Shown in pieces: positions 12,920 to 20,352 of a stretch of DNA of 64,000 bases (positions are counted from its first letter, which is position 1; every line of letters starts with the position of its first letter). Below the pieces are notes generated by a model. It made no database searches, had not been told where the DNA came from, and saw only the letters and a program-made list of their open reading frames with translations. The stretch lies in assembly GCF_000689395.1 (NCBI RefSeq), contig NZ_HG966617.1, forward strand, positions 1,126,753-1,190,752, read 5' to 3'. Position numbers and translations under genes: made by a program. The DNA is from Candidatus Phaeomarinobacter ectocarpi. GTDB lineage: Bacteria > Pseudomonadota > Alphaproteobacteria > CGMCC-115125.

Positions 12920-13101
12920 ATCTCAATGCTATAACTGAACCCGCGCAAATTGTCGCTAGTCCCTGTTGATAAGGCTGATTGGCGGCTGGAATCTTGACAA
13001 GACCCGCACCCCTATGCGCTTCTCCGCCGCAACCGCTCAAACCTGATTTGTTCAGGCTGGCGAGCCCTCCTGAACCCATGACTGACAAGGCTTTTACCGC
13101 C

Positions 13102-14886
13102 ATGACCCGTTACCGCTCTCATACCTGCGGCCAGCTGCGTGCCGAAGACGTAGGCAAGACTGTAAAACTGTCTGGCTGGGTCAATCGTGTGCGCGACCAT
13201 GGCGGCCTGCTGTTCGTTGATCTGCGCGATCACTATGGTCTGACACAGTGCGTGGCAGATCCTGATAGCCCGGCCTTTCCAAGCGTGGAAGAAATGCGGG
13301 CTGAATGGGTTGTAACCATCGAGGGCGAAGTCGTTGCCCGTTCGGATGAAACGGTGAATGACAAGCTGCCAACCGGCGCTGTGGAGATCCGCATCACGTC
13401 GGTGGAAGTTCAGTCGGAAGCGCAGGAACTGCCGCTGCCGGTATTCGGGGACACGGACTATCCAGAGGACACGCGTCTTCGTTACCGGTTCCTTGATCTG
13501 CGCCGCGAACGCATCCATCAGAACATTGTTTTGCGGTCACGCATCATCGCCGACCTGCGCCGGCGCATGACCGAGGCTGGATTCGGCGAGTACCAGACAC
13601 CCATCCTCACGGCATCTTCACCGGAAGGCGCGCGCGACTTTCTGGTGCCAAGCCGCATGCACCCCGGGCAGTTCTACGCCCTCCCACAGGCTCCCCAGCA
13701 GTTCAAACAGCTGATCATGGTCGCGGGCTTTGACAAATACTTCCAAATCGCCCCGTGCTTCCGCGATGAGGACGCGCGCGCAGACCGGTCGCCGGGTGAA
13801 TTCTATCAGCTCGATATCGAAATGAGTTTCGTAGAGCAGGAAGACATCTTCCAGGAAGTCGAACCCATCCTGCGCGATGTGTTCATTGAGTTCGGCAATG
13901 GGAAGTCAGTATCTGAAAAATTCGCACGCATTCCTTACGCGGAATCAATGCGAAAATATGGGTCTGACAAACCAGACCTCCGCAATCCGATTGAAATGTC
14001 TGATGCGACGGAAACCTTCCGTGATTCAGGCTTCAAGGTGTTTGCCGGACAGATTGCAGCAGATGACAAGGTGCGTGTCTGGGCAATCCCAGCACCGGGC
14101 GGCGGAAGTCGTGCGTTCTGTGACCGGATGAATTCCTGGGCGCAAAAGGAAGGTCAGCCGGGTCTTGGCTACATCTTCTTCCGTGAAGAAGAAGGCAGCA
14201 TCGTTGGCGCGGGTCCGCTTGCCAAGAACATCGGTCCCGAGCGGACAGAAGCTCTGCGTACGGAGCTTGGCCTCAACGCCGGTGACGCCGTGTTCTTTAC
14301 CTGCGGCATTCCAGGCAAGTTTGTGGATTTCGCCGGACAGGCGCGTCAGCAGCTCGGCCGCGAGCTTGAGCTCATTGACGAGAACAAATTTGAGTTCTGC
14401 TGGATTGTCGATTTTCCTATGTATGAGTTTGATGAAGCTGAACAGAGGATCGACTTCTCGCATAACCCGTTCTCTATGCCTCAGGGCGGCCTCGAAGCTC
14501 TAGAGACGAAAGACCCCCTGAAGATCAATGGCTACCAATACGACATTGTATGCAACGGCATTGAGCTGTCGTCCGGCGCCATTCGAAACCATCGGCCAGA
14601 AATCATGATGAAGGCCTTCGAGATTGCCGGCTACGGTCCCGAAGTGGTGGAAGAAAAGTTCGGCGGCATGCTGAATGCGTTCCGCTACGGCGCACCGCCG
14701 CACGGCGGCATCGCGCCGGGCATTGATCGCATCGTCATGTTGCTGGCGGGCGAAGAAAACCTGCGCGAAGTCACCATGTTCCCCATGAACCAGCAGGCCC
14801 AGGACCTGATGATGGGCGCCCCGGCTGAAGCCAGTGCACATCAGTTGCGTGAACTCAGCATTCGTTCCACAGCACCTAAAGAGTAG
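13102..14886 (+). CDS. aspS: Aspartyl-tRNA synthetase
   Basis: 594 residues from the ATG of [13 protein letters not shown], which matches the usual bacterial N-terminus and has ACAAGG upstream. Open frame continues to 12979, but those extra 41 residues are Pro-rich and atypical. Domains in order are the OB anticodon-binding fold (to ~110), the class II core with motif 2 [19 protein letters not shown], the bacterial GAD insertion, and motif 3 [14 protein letters not shown]. It charges tRNA-Asp; whether it also charges tRNA-Asn cannot be told without the rest of the genome (gatCAB or asnS). A strong terminator follows. Confidence 0.97.
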
Positions 14887-15024: not shown

Positions 15025-17868
15025 CTATTCCTCTCGGGGGCGGCCTGAAACGCTGGGGGGCGAAAGGGCCGGGTCACCGAAAGCTCGTGAGGGGTTCGGT
15101 ACCGGTGTGTCGGTACTGCTCCCAATTTCTTCTGAATTTTGAACATGGCCTGATCTTGTGTGGGTGCTGCGCACCAAGGGCGCTCGACCTTCTGTGGCCG
15201 CAAGACTCGCTCCACCATCGAAGTTGTCTGATGGTGCTGACTCCGCGTCCCGCAGACCTGATTGGTTCAGATACGATGAGGCCAGCATTGAAAGGGCACT
15301 GCCCAGGACATCACATCCGTCAGGTGTAGAAAGGTCTGAGAATGCCGTCTGAAATGCCTCGACGGGCACACCATGCTTCAAGCCCAATGAAATCGCAGCA
15401 TTGAGAGCTGCGTTGTCAGCCGACGGCTGAGCCGGCACCGGCAGGTCATCTGATTCAATTGAGCGCACATAGGCATTGTCGGCGATATCCGAATGCAGAT
15501 CATCCAGCGGCTCGCCAAAAAGGTCGTCTACCAGATCATCATAGTCCACAGCATCGCCAAGGGCCGCACCGTTCCGGTTGAGACGGAGTGATCTCAGCCC
15601 CATGTCTTCTGCCTGCTGATAGAGCGCGCGGATGCCGTCAACAGTTGTCTCGCGGCGAAGCTGCAGATCAAGAGCCAGACCATCCGTCAAAAACGGTTGT
15701 ACAGCCTGCGCCATCAGAAGCCGATCTGCAGGGCTGACATGGCGCGCTCCGATTTCGCCAAGCGGCTCATCGCAATCAAACACCGGCAGATGTTCGATGG
15801 GTAAGTCTCTTGATCCTTCAAGGGTCAGAGCGCCACAGCAATGGAAATTGGCGTGTTCAATATCCCAGTTCGAGAAACCCAATCCTGCCAGAATGTCTTC
15901 ATCGCTCTGCGCGCAAAAGTCCCCATCCCAGCCCAGCACGTAGGGAGTAAACACTGCCCGAATGTTGCTCGCAGTCGCTAACGCGCTTTCAGTGACTTCA
16001 ATGTCCTCGTCGGTGAATCCTCGTGAACGCAGAATGTCATAATTGACCCCAGGTGCTCCGTGCAGGGATCCGCGCCCGACCAGATGATCCAGAATGGAGT
16101 CGATCGACGCGTCGTCATGCCGAAGCGCGCGAAGGCCCAGGGGAACCGCTGGTGACACGACCTTGTAAATTGCCTCAGCGTCCAGCTCTGGAGTCAGCCG
16201 TCTGTACTTAACAAGTGTTCGGACAGGCGAGAGGGCTGCAGACTCGGCGCCCAATAAATCCATAAACACAGTGTCATTCGACACAGTCGTTAGCGCGATA
16301 TTGCGAAGCCCTGTCTCTTCCGCCTTTTCAATGGCACGGTCCAGAATGTCCCGTACCGCCTGCACTATGGCTGCCTGCTGGGGTGTGTGCGGATAAAGCG
16401 GCGGTGATGGAAGTGCGCTCCATTCACTTGGGTTCCCAAGCAAAGCGCTCTGCATCCGACGCAGAAGCGCAGCAGCTTCTTGTTGAGAGTTGTTTGCCGT
16501 GGCCGGCGCAAGTTCCGCTGCCAAACCCGCGCTTGTTGCAGCTGTAGCTGCTGTAACCAGACCGCAGATGGATGCTGCAAGGGCGCGCCCCTCGTCAGAA
16601 CCATACGCTACGCCCTGGCTCATGAGCATTGCAGCAACGTTCATGGGAGCAACCGCAATCGGCCGCAGGTCAGACGCCACACCGGCTTCATCATGCGCAA
16701 CATCCAGAGCGATCGTCAGCAGGCGGATGGAATGCACCAATCCATCGATGTCTATAGGTCGGCTAGCCCCAATTGTTTCAAGGTCCGGCATCGTGAATGC
16801 CAGCAAATCGACAGCCCCTGACGGCGTAAATCCTGCCGGAGCCGCAACGCCACTGGGTGTCAGGGCAAGCTGGTCAGCTGGCGTAAGGCTGGCGCCGCGC
16901 AACGACTTTTCAAAGCACACACCCGGCGCACCGCCTCGCAAAGCCGCGAGGGCAAGGGGTTCTGTCCACGTTTCATCACACGTGTCTGATTTGCGCACAG
17001 CATATGGCGTCTGAGTGCCCAGGAGGTCCCAGATGTCAGAGTCGTCATCCAGATGTGTGTCAGCGTCGGGCCAACTGTCGTCCCCGGCAATCCATTCATC
17101 CAGCAATCGCCGAGCCACAGCGGCAGGCAAGCCTCTCGCCCTGGCATCCGCCAGGGCAGCTTCCAGAGCACGATTCGCGCCCACGCTTGGACCGCCATCG
17201 GCCAATGCCTGCTTGATCGACTGCGTGAGGTCCGAAAGAGAGTTGCGACCAAGAGCCAGGGCCGCAGCGTCTTGCTCCCGGCGGGCATCAGAGGCAATAC
17301 GCGTCAAAAACCCGTCGCTGCTGATGCTGTCGCTTGAGGAAAACGAAACACAGGCCGGTTCATCTCCCGAACTCGTCACCGTGCTTGGCCCGTAACCATA
17401 CGCCCAGTCCCGACCGACCCGCTGCCAGGTCTCAGACGAAAGCGTGATCTTCTGCAAGACAAGCGCGGCCCGCAGTTCGTCATGGAACGCCAGGGCATCT
17501 TCTGGACCATCAAAATAGCCGGCGATCAGACCTTGCCGAGCCAGACCGCCCGCGACGCGATCAAGCGCGTTTCTCACATCAATTTCATATGTGAGGGCTG
17601 GTTCGTCTGATTTGCTGTCGCTTTCCAGCGCGCTGAACCGACGTAAGGCAGAAGGGATGTCTAGTTCGTGGAGCTGACGGCGCGCGCTGGGAACGGCCTC
17701 GTGCAGAAGAGCGTATTCACTGAATGTCGTGACGACACTTACCGGCCACGTCCCAGGCGCAAAGACCCACTTCGTATCGCCGGTCGCATCTTCAACGCGA
17801 ACGCGCCGGAAGCGCTGACCTGAGTAGGGGCCCGTTGCTGTATCGGTAAAATAGCGTCCGATCTGCAT
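15025..17868 (-). CDS. NrdJ-like pseudoenzyme (degenerate B12-dependent ribonucleotide reductase)
   Basis: 947 residues from ATG 17868, which has GGGGGCG six bases upstream. The text aligns with class II ribonucleotide reductase NrdJ over its whole length: RYFTDTATGPYSG (5-17), the GYFDGPEDALAFHDELRA helix (117-134), GVAYGSDEGRALAA (419-432), ADNAALNAAISLGLKHGVP (817-835), and the block HCCGALTLEGSRDL...EHLPVFDC (676-699). Catalytic parts are missing. The N-P-C-S-E active-site motif reads T-P-S-G-V (337-341), so the Asn, thiyl Cys and Glu are all replaced. The second redox Cys is Ser350. The PTGT loop reads SNDT (530-533), the GTGTNFS segment is deleted and there is no zinc ribbon. Cys173 (PACV) remains. 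It is unlikely to reduce nucleotides; a regulatory or structural role in the Nrd system is inference, supported by the NrdR boxes upstream. Confidence 0.85.
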   Translation of the reverse strand: MQIGRYFTDTATGPYSGQRFRRVRVEDATGDTKWVFAPGTWPVSVVTTFSEYALLHEAVPSARRQLHELDIPSALRRFSALESDSKSDEPALTYEIDVRNALDRVAGGLARQGLIAGYFDGPEDALAFHDELRAALVLQKITLSSETWQRVGRDWAYGYGPSTVTSSGDEPACVSFSSSDSISSDGFLTRIASDARREQDAAALALGRNSLSDLTQSIKQALADGGPSVGANRALEAALADARARGLPAAVARRLLDEWIAGDDSWPDADTHLDDDSDIWDLLGTQTPYAVRKSDTCDETWTEPLALAALRGGAPGVCFEKSLRGASLTPADQLALTPSGVAAPAGFTPSGAVDLLAFTMPDLETIGASRPIDIDGLVHSIRLLTIALDVAHDEAGVASDLRPIAVAPMNVAAMLMSQGVAYGSDEGRALAASICGLVTAATAATSAGLAAELAPATANNSQQEAAALLRRMQSALLGNPSEWSALPSPPLYPHTPQQAAIVQAVRDILDRAIEKAEETGLRNIALTTVSNDTVFMDLLGAESAALSPVRTLVKYRRLTPELDAEAIYKVVSPAVPLGLRALRHDDASIDSILDHLVGRGSLHGAPGVNYDILRSRGFTDEDIEVTESALATASNIRAVFTPYVLGWDGDFCAQSDEDILAGLGFSNWDIEHANFHCCGALTLEGSRDLPIEHLPVFDCDEPLGEIGARHVSPADRLLMAQAVQPFLTDGLALDLQLRRETTVDGIRALYQQAEDMGLRSLRLNRNGAALGDAVDYDDLVDDLFGEPLDDLHSDIADNAYVRSIESDDLPVPAQPSADNAALNAAISLGLKHGVPVEAFQTAFSDLSTPDGCDVLGSALSMLASSYLNQSGLRDAESAPSDNFDGGASLAATEGRAPLVRSTHTRSGHVQNSEEIGSSTDTPVPNPSRAFGDPALSPPSVSGRPREE

Positions 17869-17912: not shown

Positions 17913-17928
17913 CCACTATATTTTGTGG
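17913..17928. promoter_or_regulatory. NrdR box 1
   Basis: CCACTATATTTTGTGG fits the NrdR consensus acaCwAtATaTwGtgt at 13 of 16 positions, including every strongly conserved one. It lies 45 bp before the start of the NrdJ-like gene, and its minus strand holds a TATAGT that could be a -10 element. Confidence 0.75.
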
Positions 17929-17943
17929 CTACACGCACATGGT

Positions 17944-17959
17944 TAACAAAATATGGTGC
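17944..17959. promoter_or_regulatory. NrdR box 2
   Basis: Read on the minus strand this is GCACCATATTTTGTTA. It shares a 13-base arm (one mismatch) with box 1 in inverted order and keeps the conserved C, A, AT, T and G positions. Its centre is exactly 31 bp from the centre of box 1, about three helical turns, which is the usual spacing of paired NrdR boxes. Confidence 0.7.
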
Positions 17960-18180
17960 ATATATGGCCTCCCGGTCAAGACATCTATGTCGACCTGGGA
18001 ATCTTCGCCATTCACGTCAGGGAAAGAAAAATCTGAGGCGTTAAGCAGTCTTAAGGCGATTCGGGTCAGACTGCCCAGCATGTCGGCAAGAAACTGCCGC
18101 GTGGAGTGAAGCAATTTTTGGAACGCAGGCTGTGTTTAGCCACGGCGGACCAAAATGTCGTTGGGGTGAGACAGGCAAGA

Positions 18181-18783
18181 ATGCCGGGGAAAGATCTGAA
18201 ACCAGGGCTTGGCGTTCTGGCGGGCGTGGGAATTGTTGCAGTTGACGACAACGCAAACACCCGACGGCTGCTGAAAGAGTTGCTTCTTGCTTTTGGGACA
18301 CGCGACCTGAGGATTGCCGGAGACGGCGCGACCGCACTTGAGATGGTCAATGCCAAAACGCCGGACTTGATCCTGTGCGACTGGCATATGGAACCAATGG
18401 ACGGCATCGCGTTTCTCCGCCATCTACGCCATAAGGACAGCGGCGCTGCCGCTCGCACACCTGCGATCATGCTCACAGCTCACACCAAGCCTGAGGTTGT
18501 AAAGGCGTCAATGGATGCCGGTGCCAACCATTTTGTTGCAAAACCAATTGTGCCGGCAAATCTCCTCAAACGTATCCAGTGGGTGAGGGCCGACAAGCGG
18601 ATTTTCCTGCTCGAGGGTGATCACTACGTTTTGCGTGATCCTGGCGATATAGCGCCCCGCGCTGGTGCGACAGGGCAACAGGCCAAAAAGCCCTCTACAC
18701 ATGCGCCTAAACCACCTGCTCCGGCGCCATCAGCCGCTATTGCCATTGAAGACGTGGATGCAGAGGAAGTCTGGGAAATCTAG
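18181..18783 (+). CDS. Single-domain response regulator with Pro/Ala-rich tail
   Basis: 200 residues from ATG 18181; a GTG at 18106 would add 25 unrelated residues. One receiver domain fills residues ~15-135: the acidic pair in VAVDDNANTRRLL, the phospho-acceptor Asp in LILCDWHMEPMDG, the switch Thr in AIMLTAHT and the Lys of FVAKPIV. A tail of Pro, Ala and Lys ends in EDVDAEEVWEI, and there is no DNA-binding or enzymatic output domain. No histidine kinase is nearby. It is divergent from the NrdJ-like gene; a functional tie is unproven. Confidence 0.88.
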   Translation: MPGKDLKPGLGVLAGVGIVAVDDNANTRRLLKELLLAFGTRDLRIAGDGATALEMVNAKTPDLILCDWHMEPMDGIAFLRHLRHKDSGAAARTPAIMLTAHTKPEVVKASMDAGANHFVAKPIVPANLLKRIQWVRADKRIFLLEGDHYVLRDPGDIAPRAGATGQQAKKPSTHAPKPPAPAPSAAIAIEDVDAEEVWEI

Positions 18784-18941: not shown

Positions 18942-19325
18942 ATGATGTGGTTCAGACAAATTTTCAGCTGGTGGAACGGTCAAACGATCGGCACCCGGTT
19001 TTGGACGTTCAAGCGCGGCCAATTGGTCGGTGAAGACAGCCAGGGCAACAAATATTATTCGGATCGTAAGAACGCTAAGCGCCGTTGGGTGATTTACAAT
19101 GGTCTGGCCGAGGCATCCCGGGTGCCGCCGGAATGGCATGGATGGCTTCATCAGACGGTGGATGTTGCGCCTGCAGATACCGGATACACGCCGCGGGAAT
19201 GGGAAAAACCACATCAGCCCAATCTCACTGGTTCCCAGCAGGCCTACCGCCCTGCGGGTTCACTCATTACCGGCGCTCCCAGAGCAAAAACAGCTGGTGA
19301 CTATGAAGCTTGGAAGCCCGAGTAG
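18942..19325 (+). CDS. NADH:ubiquinone oxidoreductase subunit NDUFA12 family protein
   Basis: 127 residues from the ATG pair at 18942. The NDUFA12 (B17.2) signature is clear: TFKRGQLVGEDSQGNKYY, then RRWVIYNGLAEASRVPPEW, HGWLHQTVD and the conserved EWEKPHQPNLTGSQQAYRPAGS. In alphaproteobacteria and mitochondria this is an accessory subunit of complex I on the matrix or cytoplasmic side. It is encoded away from the nuo operon, as is usual, next to mlaD and DUF2155. Confidence 0.93.
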   Translation: MMWFRQIFSWWNGQTIGTRFWTFKRGQLVGEDSQGNKYYSDRKNAKRRWVIYNGLAEASRVPPEWHGWLHQTVDVAPADTGYTPREWEKPHQPNLTGSQQAYRPAGSLITGAPRAKTAGDYEAWKPE

Positions 19326-19405
19326 ACCCTAACTCGACACTCCGTGCGTTCAGCCGTCACCAGCAGGTAGAGGGCTGACTTAAAGAGGCAACGAAGGATC
19401 CCACG

Positions 19406-19861
19406 ATGCAGTCTTCAATTATTGAGACCCTGACCGGAGCTGCTGTTATCGCCATAGCGGCAGTTTTTCTGTTTTTTGCCTACAGCTCCACAGATGCCGG
19501 CGCGACTTCCGGATACGACCTAACCATCGATTTTGATCGGGTAGACGGCTTGGCGCGCGGTGCCGATGTTCGTCTGTCTGGCATCAAGGTCGGGTCGGTG
19601 ACGGAACAGGAGCTGGATGTCTCGACCTATGTGGCACGGGTGACCATCACAGTTGATCCTAAAGTTGCCCTTCCAGAGGATACGAGCGCAAAGATCACGT
19701 CAGAAGGCCTTCTGGGTGGCTCTTACATTTCCCTCACTCCGGGAGGCAGCGAGGATATGCTCGAGGCCGGTGACGAAATCCAGTTTGCCCAGGGTTCGGT
19801 TGATCTTATTGGTCTCGTCAGTCAGGCCGTCTTCAGCGCTGGCGGGGGCGACAGCGAGTGA
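19406..19861 (+). CDS. mlaD: MlaD-family outer membrane lipid asymmetry protein
   Basis: 151 residues. One N-terminal membrane helix (ETLTGAAVIAIAAVFLFFAY) is followed by a single MCE domain (~35-115) containing FDRVDGLARGADVRLSGIKVG and SEGLLGGSYISLTPGG. MlaD forms the periplasmic hexamer of the MlaFEDB lipid transporter. The other mla genes are not in the window. The stop overlaps the start of the DUF2155 gene (GTGA). Confidence 0.92.
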   Translation: MQSSIIETLTGAAVIAIAAVFLFFAYSSTDAGATSGYDLTIDFDRVDGLARGADVRLSGIKVGSVTEQELDVSTYVARVTITVDPKVALPEDTSAKITSEGLLGGSYISLTPGGSEDMLEAGDEIQFAQGSVDLIGLVSQAVFSAGGGDSE

Positions 19862-20352
19862 GTTTGCTTGGAAGCATTGGGCATAGGGGCATGACATCGG
19901 GTCTTCATGTCATGGGCACTGCTCTGCTCATTGCCGGATTATCGGCCCACGCTATTGCCCAAGAGGCTGAAAGCGAGACTGTCACTGAAGAAACCGTGGC
20001 TGAAGTCGAGCGTGTGCCTGACACAGCAAACTTGATGGGTCTCAACAAGATCACGGCACGCACTCATCCAATGCGCGTGAAGCTGGATACACCACTACGA
20101 TTTGGGACATTGGGCATCGTGGTGCGTGCATGTGAGAAGGCCCGGCCGGAAGACCCACCTAAAACAATCGCTTTTCTGGAAGTGCGTGAGTACCCGGTCA
20201 ACGAAGAGATCACGACTGAGCCTGAGCCCATTTTCAGTGGGTGGATGCTGGCATCGTCCCCCGGACTGAACGCCCTGGAGCACCCGGTCTACGATGTGTG
20301 GCTGACTGACTGCACTATTTCATCCGCGGCAGCACCTGCATCAAGCGAATAG
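19858..20352 (+). CDS. DUF2155 domain-containing exported protein
   Basis: 164 residues from a GTG that overlaps the mlaD stop and has GGGGGCG in front; ATG 19891 is an alternative. There is a signal-peptide-like segment ending AHAIAQEA. The DUF2155 core has the pattern [27 protein letters not shown], a single early Cys, [30 protein letters not shown] and a second Cys, which could form a disulfide. Function is unknown. The last 64 bp overlap aat in convergent orientation. Confidence 0.88.

Follow-up and report, generated by a model that had tools for sequence, protein, structure and literature searches.

A predicted two-box NrdR operator upstream of a conserved NrdJ-derived pseudoenzyme gene in Candidatus Phaeomarinobacter ectocarpi

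The locus and its predicted two-box operator

NrdR senses the supply of dNTPs in bacteria and is described as repressing the genes of ribonucleotide reductases. The window considered here, a stretch of 64,000 nucleotides from Candidatus Phaeomarinobacter ectocarpi, contains a putative NrdR operator upstream of a gene whose product resembles NrdJ, the B12-dependent class II reductase. The features of the locus are as follows.

12979 to 14886, plus strand: aspS-like gene, a convergent neighbour used for synteny
15025 to 17868, minus strand: NrdJ-derived pseudoenzyme gene, 947 aa, so named from homology, residue losses and selection, with a match in all four genomes of the order
17913 to 17928, minus strand: putative NrdR box 1, nearer the gene, CCACAAAATATAGTGG in gene orientation, 18.6 bits alone
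17929 to 17943, minus strand: spacer of 15 bp, within the 14-17 bp reported for NrdR (PMC12051234)
17944 to 17959, minus strand: putative NrdR box 2, farther from the gene, GCACCATATTTTGTTA in gene orientation, 15.3 bits
17950 to 17979, minus strand: predicted sigma-70-like promoter, TTGACC-18-CATATT, 9 of 12 matches against a shuffle mean of 0.4
18181 to 18783, plus strand: divergent response-regulator gene
18945 to 20352, plus strand: genes with NDUFA12, MlaD and DUF2155 domains, syntenic with intact nrdJ loci

Read directly, positions 17913-17928 are CCACTATATTTTGTGG and positions 17944-17959 are TAACAAAATATGGTGC. A preliminary description of this DNA had claimed that both 16-mers fit the NrdR consensus, with one W position lost in box 2, and that they lie 31 bp apart, as at known nrd promoters, upstream of the NrdJ-like gene. 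All of this is borne out: the conserved C, A, AT, T, G core of an NrdR operator, with its C...G frame, is present in both boxes, a G occupies the lost W position, the box starts are 31 bp apart with a 15-bp spacer between the boxes, and both lie 45-91 bp 5' of the ATG (17868, minus strand). The spacer falls within the 14-17 bp of the published spacing rule (alternatively 24-27 bp), according to which NrdR proteins of four species bind two boxes, and a single box is reportedly not bound by S. coelicolor or E. coli NrdR (PMC12051234). The dATP/ATP tetramer of NrdR is described as fitting boxes approximately three helix turns apart (PMC9110341). The operators of S. coelicolor nrdRJ and nrdAB and of E. 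coli nrdAB, nrdHIEF and nrdDG likewise consist of two palindromic boxes, and known NrdR boxes are 15-16 bp apart in most bacteria and often cover the RNA polymerase site (PMC9110341, PMC12051234, PMC12176259). In contrast to those operators, the top-scoring pair here, among the regions scored, precedes a gene that no longer encodes a reductase.

A promoter scan upstream of the NrdJ-like gene yielded one sigma-70-like promoter, with its -10 element inside box 2. Since box 2 overlaps this conserved -10, which is itself predicted from its consensus match, NrdR should block transcription at this site. The conservation could be followed within the window's order, represented by four searchable genomes of a single genus (the organism's own, G001, G002 and G003); the comparison of the operator covers the own genome, G003 and G001, with the G002 contig ending within the gene, before the promoter. 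Both hexamers and their 18-bp distance are preserved in these three genomes. The pair is kept in G003 (34.0 bits) and is weaker in G001 (23.5 bits): box 1 retains 15 of 16 bases in G003 and is degenerate in G001, and at box 2 the string CATATTTTGTTAAC is unchanged in all three while the flanking DNA differs. Elsewhere in the intergenic region, positions 18040-18066 include TTAA-N6-TTAA plus GAATC, read on the minus strand, a stretch kept in the own genome and G003 and partly in G001. These motifs resemble CtrA and CcrM sites, possibly serving the divergent response regulator.

The scores derive from a matrix seeded with a consensus and built from nrdJ promoters of other Alphaproteobacteria, no genome of the window's order being included in the training. 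From 27 nrdJ loci, five without upstream DNA were dropped and the six lowest-scoring of the remaining 22 were excluded, so that the best-scoring 16 of 22 promoters served for training and their own scores are circular. Matrix scores apply to selected stretches, and genome-wide claims are pattern searches. The preliminary description had made its reading depend on a score enriched over background; the window pair reaches 33.9 bits, compared with 23.0 bits for the top pair in 10,247,715 bases (10.2 Mb) of simulated sequence and 30.2 bits for the best of the 22 intact-nrdJ promoters. No box as good as box 1 alone occurred in the 10.2 Mb, and box 2 alone was equalled or exceeded 21 times. A plain consensus scan at up to three mismatches recovered box 1 only (two matches, its two strands) and missed box 2, and at least two consensus matches arose in 16 of 100 shuffles of the window. 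The significance belongs to the pair; a single-box scan is unconvincing. With zero mismatches, a pattern search for the core pair CNANATNTNG-N21-CNANATNTNG found two places in the 3.416-Mb single-contig genome, namely the window operator and a site within the 3' coding part of an rsmG/gidB-like gene adjoining a parA-like gene (both names recognised from sequence). The latter pair, at 3280036 (21.0 bits), was dropped as an NrdR target because it lies in coding sequence.

A probable NrdJ descendant without the catalytic residues

The protein comparison drew on 26 NrdJ frames from the class, 26 of the 27 loci having given a long enough frame. These frames span 1,122-1,268 aa, compared with 947 aa here. 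Two Pfam domains are found above their cut-offs, the class II N-terminal domain PF08471 (30.3; cut-off 27) and part of the barrel PF02867 (43.7; cut-off 23.9), and the protein aligns with 7b9p; two intact syntenic NrdJs score 411.8 and 427.8 bits for the barrel. The NrdJ family cut-offs are missed by a wide margin (278.9 vs 1737 for NF005736 and 68.1 vs 399.95 for TIGR02504). NF005401, 'ribonucleotide reductase-like protein', is matched weakly at 31.6 bits against a cut-off of 906, and the protein is not a member.

The NPCSE motif (N, P, C, S and E), the partner cysteine and APTGT are invariant in all 26 NrdJs and absent from all four proteins of the order, as are six C-terminal cysteines (26/26 vs 0/4). 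A block of approximately 110 residues that holds the first active-site cysteine is also missing. The catalytic cysteines are taken to be those generally assigned in NrdJ. Measured against class II NrdJ, the protein has neither the active-site cysteines and NPCSE, nor the C-terminal cysteine-rich redox domain, nor a score at the family cut-off. The earlier proposal that the NrdJ-like protein is a pseudoenzyme is thus upheld at the level of residues. The cysteine-rich domain is reported for most, not all, class II enzymes, and some Alphaproteobacteria are described as having two NrdJd proteins of which only one carries it (PMC5704485). Those species likewise possess an NrdJ relative without this domain, alongside a second, domain-bearing NrdJ (PMC5704485), whereas no intact NrdJ was found in the genome considered here.

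Several features point to selection on the protein. The frame is free of stops in all four genomes, one being ended by the contig end (G002), and all four proteins share a C-terminal tail, GDPA.SPPSVSGR.RE, which is not in the NrdJs shown. Between the own genome and G003, dN/dS is 0.156 overall, 0.053 for residues 561-771 and 0.404 for residues 772-930; the pseudoenzyme evolves faster than aspS (0.008) and nrdA (0.012). Judged from its sequence, the product is a conserved, selected protein for which reductase activity by known chemistry is impossible. Given this selection, a present non-catalytic role is highly probable.

Matches at E <= 1e-30 occur in 156 of 241 class genomes, and among the matches listed, three genomes of the window's order score far above the rest; the other listed matches are 27-35% identical and mostly belong to frames of about 1,200 aa, with a few of 900-1,150. 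In a scan of named bacterial genomes the only matches were a single MAG from this group and a distant sequence from Arachnia, the latter retaining, by eye, NPCSE and the cysteine tail. An AlphaFold model built on a three-row alignment has a mean pLDDT of 31.4 and is unusable. Residues ~212-255 show a weak match, below the Pfam cut-off, to the YebC/TACO1 N-terminal domain in the own genome, G003 and G002 but not in G001, and intact NrdJs have aligned sequence at this stretch.

Proteins with a reductase fold that were retained after catalysis was lost are exemplified by yeast Rnr4 and the herpesvirus R1 homologue M45. These derive from class I subunits, whereas the window protein is bacterial and stems from the B12-dependent class II. 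A search of the open-licence PMC literature, judged by title and abstract start, found no report of such a protein among the papers listed, and neither 'pseudogene' nor 'inactive' occurs in passages of PMC3019208.

Descent in place from nrdJ is indicated by gene order. In a tree, the proteins of the four genomes cluster with a support of 1.0 and are separated from the 26 NrdJs by a long branch of 1.86; as it does not place them among NrdJs, the argument for orthology is drawn from synteny. Two neighbourhoods were read, those of genomes G172 and G079, the second chosen for sharing the family of the first. In G172 the order is an rnd-like gene, aspS, an intact nrdJ (1,236 aa), a response regulator, NDUFA12, MlaD and DUF2155, which is the window's order with the intact nrdJ replacing the pseudoenzyme gene and one extra gene before DUF2155. 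G079 shares nrdJ, NDUFA12, MlaD, DUF2155, aat and biotin carboxylase with the window, all on one side of nrdJ, and aspS was not seen beside its nrdJ. The window gene thus occupies the same genomic position as an intact nrdJ, on both sides in G172 and on one side in G079. Among 27 loci searched for an aspS tail adjoining nrdJ, only that of G172 had one; the loci reach an estimated 570 bp past nrdJ, on one side only. Each of the two intact nrdJ promoters contains an NrdR-type pair, spaced by 15 bp, that outscores all others in its 10-kb stretch: 25.1 bits in G079 (outside the training) and 17.0 bits in G172 (in the training).

Synteny and the pairs at the intact nrdJ genes together suggest that the operator was probably inherited from nrdJ and then kept. 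Most likely, the window gene is an ancestral nrdJ changed in place. Alphaproteobacterial NrdJ (class II, NF005736; solved relative 7b9p) shares with it the locus in two genomes and an NrdR pair in the promoter; the N-terminal domain and part of the barrel remain recognisable in the pseudoenzyme, and the catalytic residues and cysteine-rich domain have been lost.

This loss may be viewed against the remaining reductases. The NrdJ model, run on the window's genome, returned only NrdA and the window gene, with no NrdJ over the family cut-off. NrdA is present in all four genomes of the order, and NrdD is absent from all four; from these searches, nrdAB is the only reductase found in the genome. 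An NrdA like the own one occurs in 15 of 20 NrdJ-bearing genomes chosen from the matches, and since both classes are commonly carried together, a genome could tolerate losing class II catalysis. Possible B12 auxotrophy and a B12 importer are reported for Ca. P. ectocarpi (PMC4110880), which may explain why a B12-dependent activity was given up.

NrdR and its predicted regulon

An nrdR gene, on whose presence the preliminary description had rested its proposal, is encoded in the genome (TIGR00244, 175.5 bits; cut-off 124.65), and its product has the Zn-ribbon and ATP-cone domains. The protein has D15, R17, R26-29 and R37, the numbers given for DNA contacts in Streptomyces NrdR, and Q at residue 12 where that source has R, the residues being matched by number without alignment (PMC9110341). 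No pair was seen in the nrdR region (best 10.4 bits in a 6-kb stretch); autoregulation by NrdR was reportedly never found in one study of Proteobacteria (PMC5343134).

The window gene had been proposed to belong to the NrdR regulon, and this gains support from NrdR-type pairs at nrdA and nrdB as well. A proximal pair with a 15-bp spacer lies in the nrdA promoter in all four genomes of the order, over hexamers read as -35 and -10, and a pair with a spacer of 15 or 16 bp lies at nrdB in all three genomes whose nrdB region was fetched. In the own genome they score 19.6 and 20.8 bits respectively, both below the simulated maximum of 23.0, and the first box of each is without the central AT. Similar scores are obtained at a ccrM-like gene (21.2 bits), the coding rsmG site (21.0), a trpG/deacetylase site (19.9) and an HNH gene (18.7). 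As candidates, the nrdA and nrdB pairs are thus carried by place and conservation, not by score, and the window pair is the highest-scoring among the regions scored.

For nrdA there are three candidate arrangements: the proximal pair, a distal pair and a neighbour of the strong distal box at a 21-bp pitch. The distal pair has a 17-bp spacer and ends in a strong box at 426082; it scores 24.7 bits here, 24.3 in G003, 21.4 in G002 and 15.6 in G001. The proximal pair is taken as the likely operator because of its place. The distal site (G000:C1:426049-426118) lies about 500 bp 5' of nrdA, and its strong box has weaker partners upstream, at the 17-bp spacing, and downstream, at the 21-bp pitch. Variants of this strong box are present in all four genomes.

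Other NrdR-like sites were encountered along the way. The trpG-like and HNH sites were discounted as targets, their second boxes being weak; the former (G000:C1:1278515-1278530) is a palindrome in the gap separating a trpG-like gene from a divergently oriented polysaccharide deacetylase gene, and G003 and G001 each have one similar palindrome. A pair with a 15-bp spacer (G000:C1:671971-672017) lies 5' of a ccrM-like N6/N4 methylase gene with a RAMA domain and is recovered, with a single mismatch in the core, in this genome, G002 and G003, G001 not being among the matches listed; it contains GAGTC/GACTC repeats, and methylation control is an equally good reading. Finally, CCACAATATATTGATT (G000:C1:314501-314516) is present in all four genomes and is preceded by TTAT in the own genome, which makes it resemble a DnaA box.

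Interpretation and significance

Taken together, the operator is very likely a two-box site at which NrdR represses the pseudoenzyme gene in concert with nrdA and nrdB. NrdR bound at the two boxes, the second over the -10, would block transcription of the gene, and when dNTPs are low the gene would be released along with nrdA and nrdB. The gene, most likely a descendant of nrdJ, lost catalysis, yet the promoter and the open frame persist under purifying selection, and its product is most likely expressed and non-catalytic.

An alternative possibility is that the boxes merely persist from the promoter of the ancestral nrdJ, have no present function and stand before a gene that is heading for loss. 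Descent would indeed explain the presence of the boxes, given the pairs at two intact syntenic nrdJ loci, and a dN/dS of 0.156 is high next to 0.008 for aspS and 0.012 for nrdA. However, this value is far below 1, the frame is open in all four genomes (one truncated by its contig), the C-terminal tail absent from the NrdJs shown is conserved in all four, box 2 and the spacing have been retained amid turnover of the flanking DNA, and the window pair outscores every pair in the 22 intact-nrdJ promoters examined. A vestige of this kind is therefore considered unlikely.

Less probable still is control of the divergent response-regulator gene (18181-18783, plus strand) by the operator, instead of or besides the NrdJ-like gene. 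The two genes have one intergenic region in common, and the nrdJ of G172 likewise has a divergent response regulator. Nevertheless, the boxes lie 45-91 bp from the start of the NrdJ-like gene compared with about 220 bp from that of the regulator, box 2 sits on the -10 of the minus-strand promoter, and the G079 nrdJ has its 25.1-bit pair even though the first family-matched gene on the plus strand is NDUFA12 (an unscanned 127-aa frame lies between).

Chance similarity, or sites of another regulator of the DnaA or CtrA type, would agree with a single-box scan that is not significant on its own, but is made very improbable by the pair statistics, the NrdR-type spacing, the conservation and the like pairs at nrdA, nrdB and intact nrdJ promoters. 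That the protein might still function as a ribonucleotide reductase, either by itself or within a mixed complex, is hardly credible despite its alignment with 7b9p and its partial retention of the class II N-terminal domain and barrel, for none of the four proteins has the active-site cysteines, the N or E of NPCSE, APTGT or the six C-terminal cysteines, the ~110-residue block with the first active-site cysteine is gone, and another NrdJ is reported to be inactive as the active-site cysteine mutant C370A (PMC5704485).

Under the preferred reading, an NrdR-controlled pseudoenzyme with a present role, the nature of that role can be approached only tentatively. Co-regulation prompts the guess that it lies in dNTP supply, which we hold at somewhat less than even, and a structural or regulatory partner of NrdAB may be imagined. 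The fuller proposal is offered with the same reserve: in one alphaproteobacterial order, a B12-dependent reductase may have been converted in place into a non-catalytic protein that is induced through NrdR when dNTPs are low and acts on dNTP supply, conceivably through an interaction with NrdAB, a nucleotide or a cobamide.

A strong, conserved operator on a conserved, non-catalytic descendant suggests that selection preserved the protein, together with its connection to dNTP control, past the loss of catalysis. The function of a pseudoenzyme derived from a reductase can be addressed concretely at this locus, in a group with a possible B12 auxotroph (PMC4110880). Ultimately, if the proposal is true, a reductase would have been turned into a dNTP-responsive regulator.
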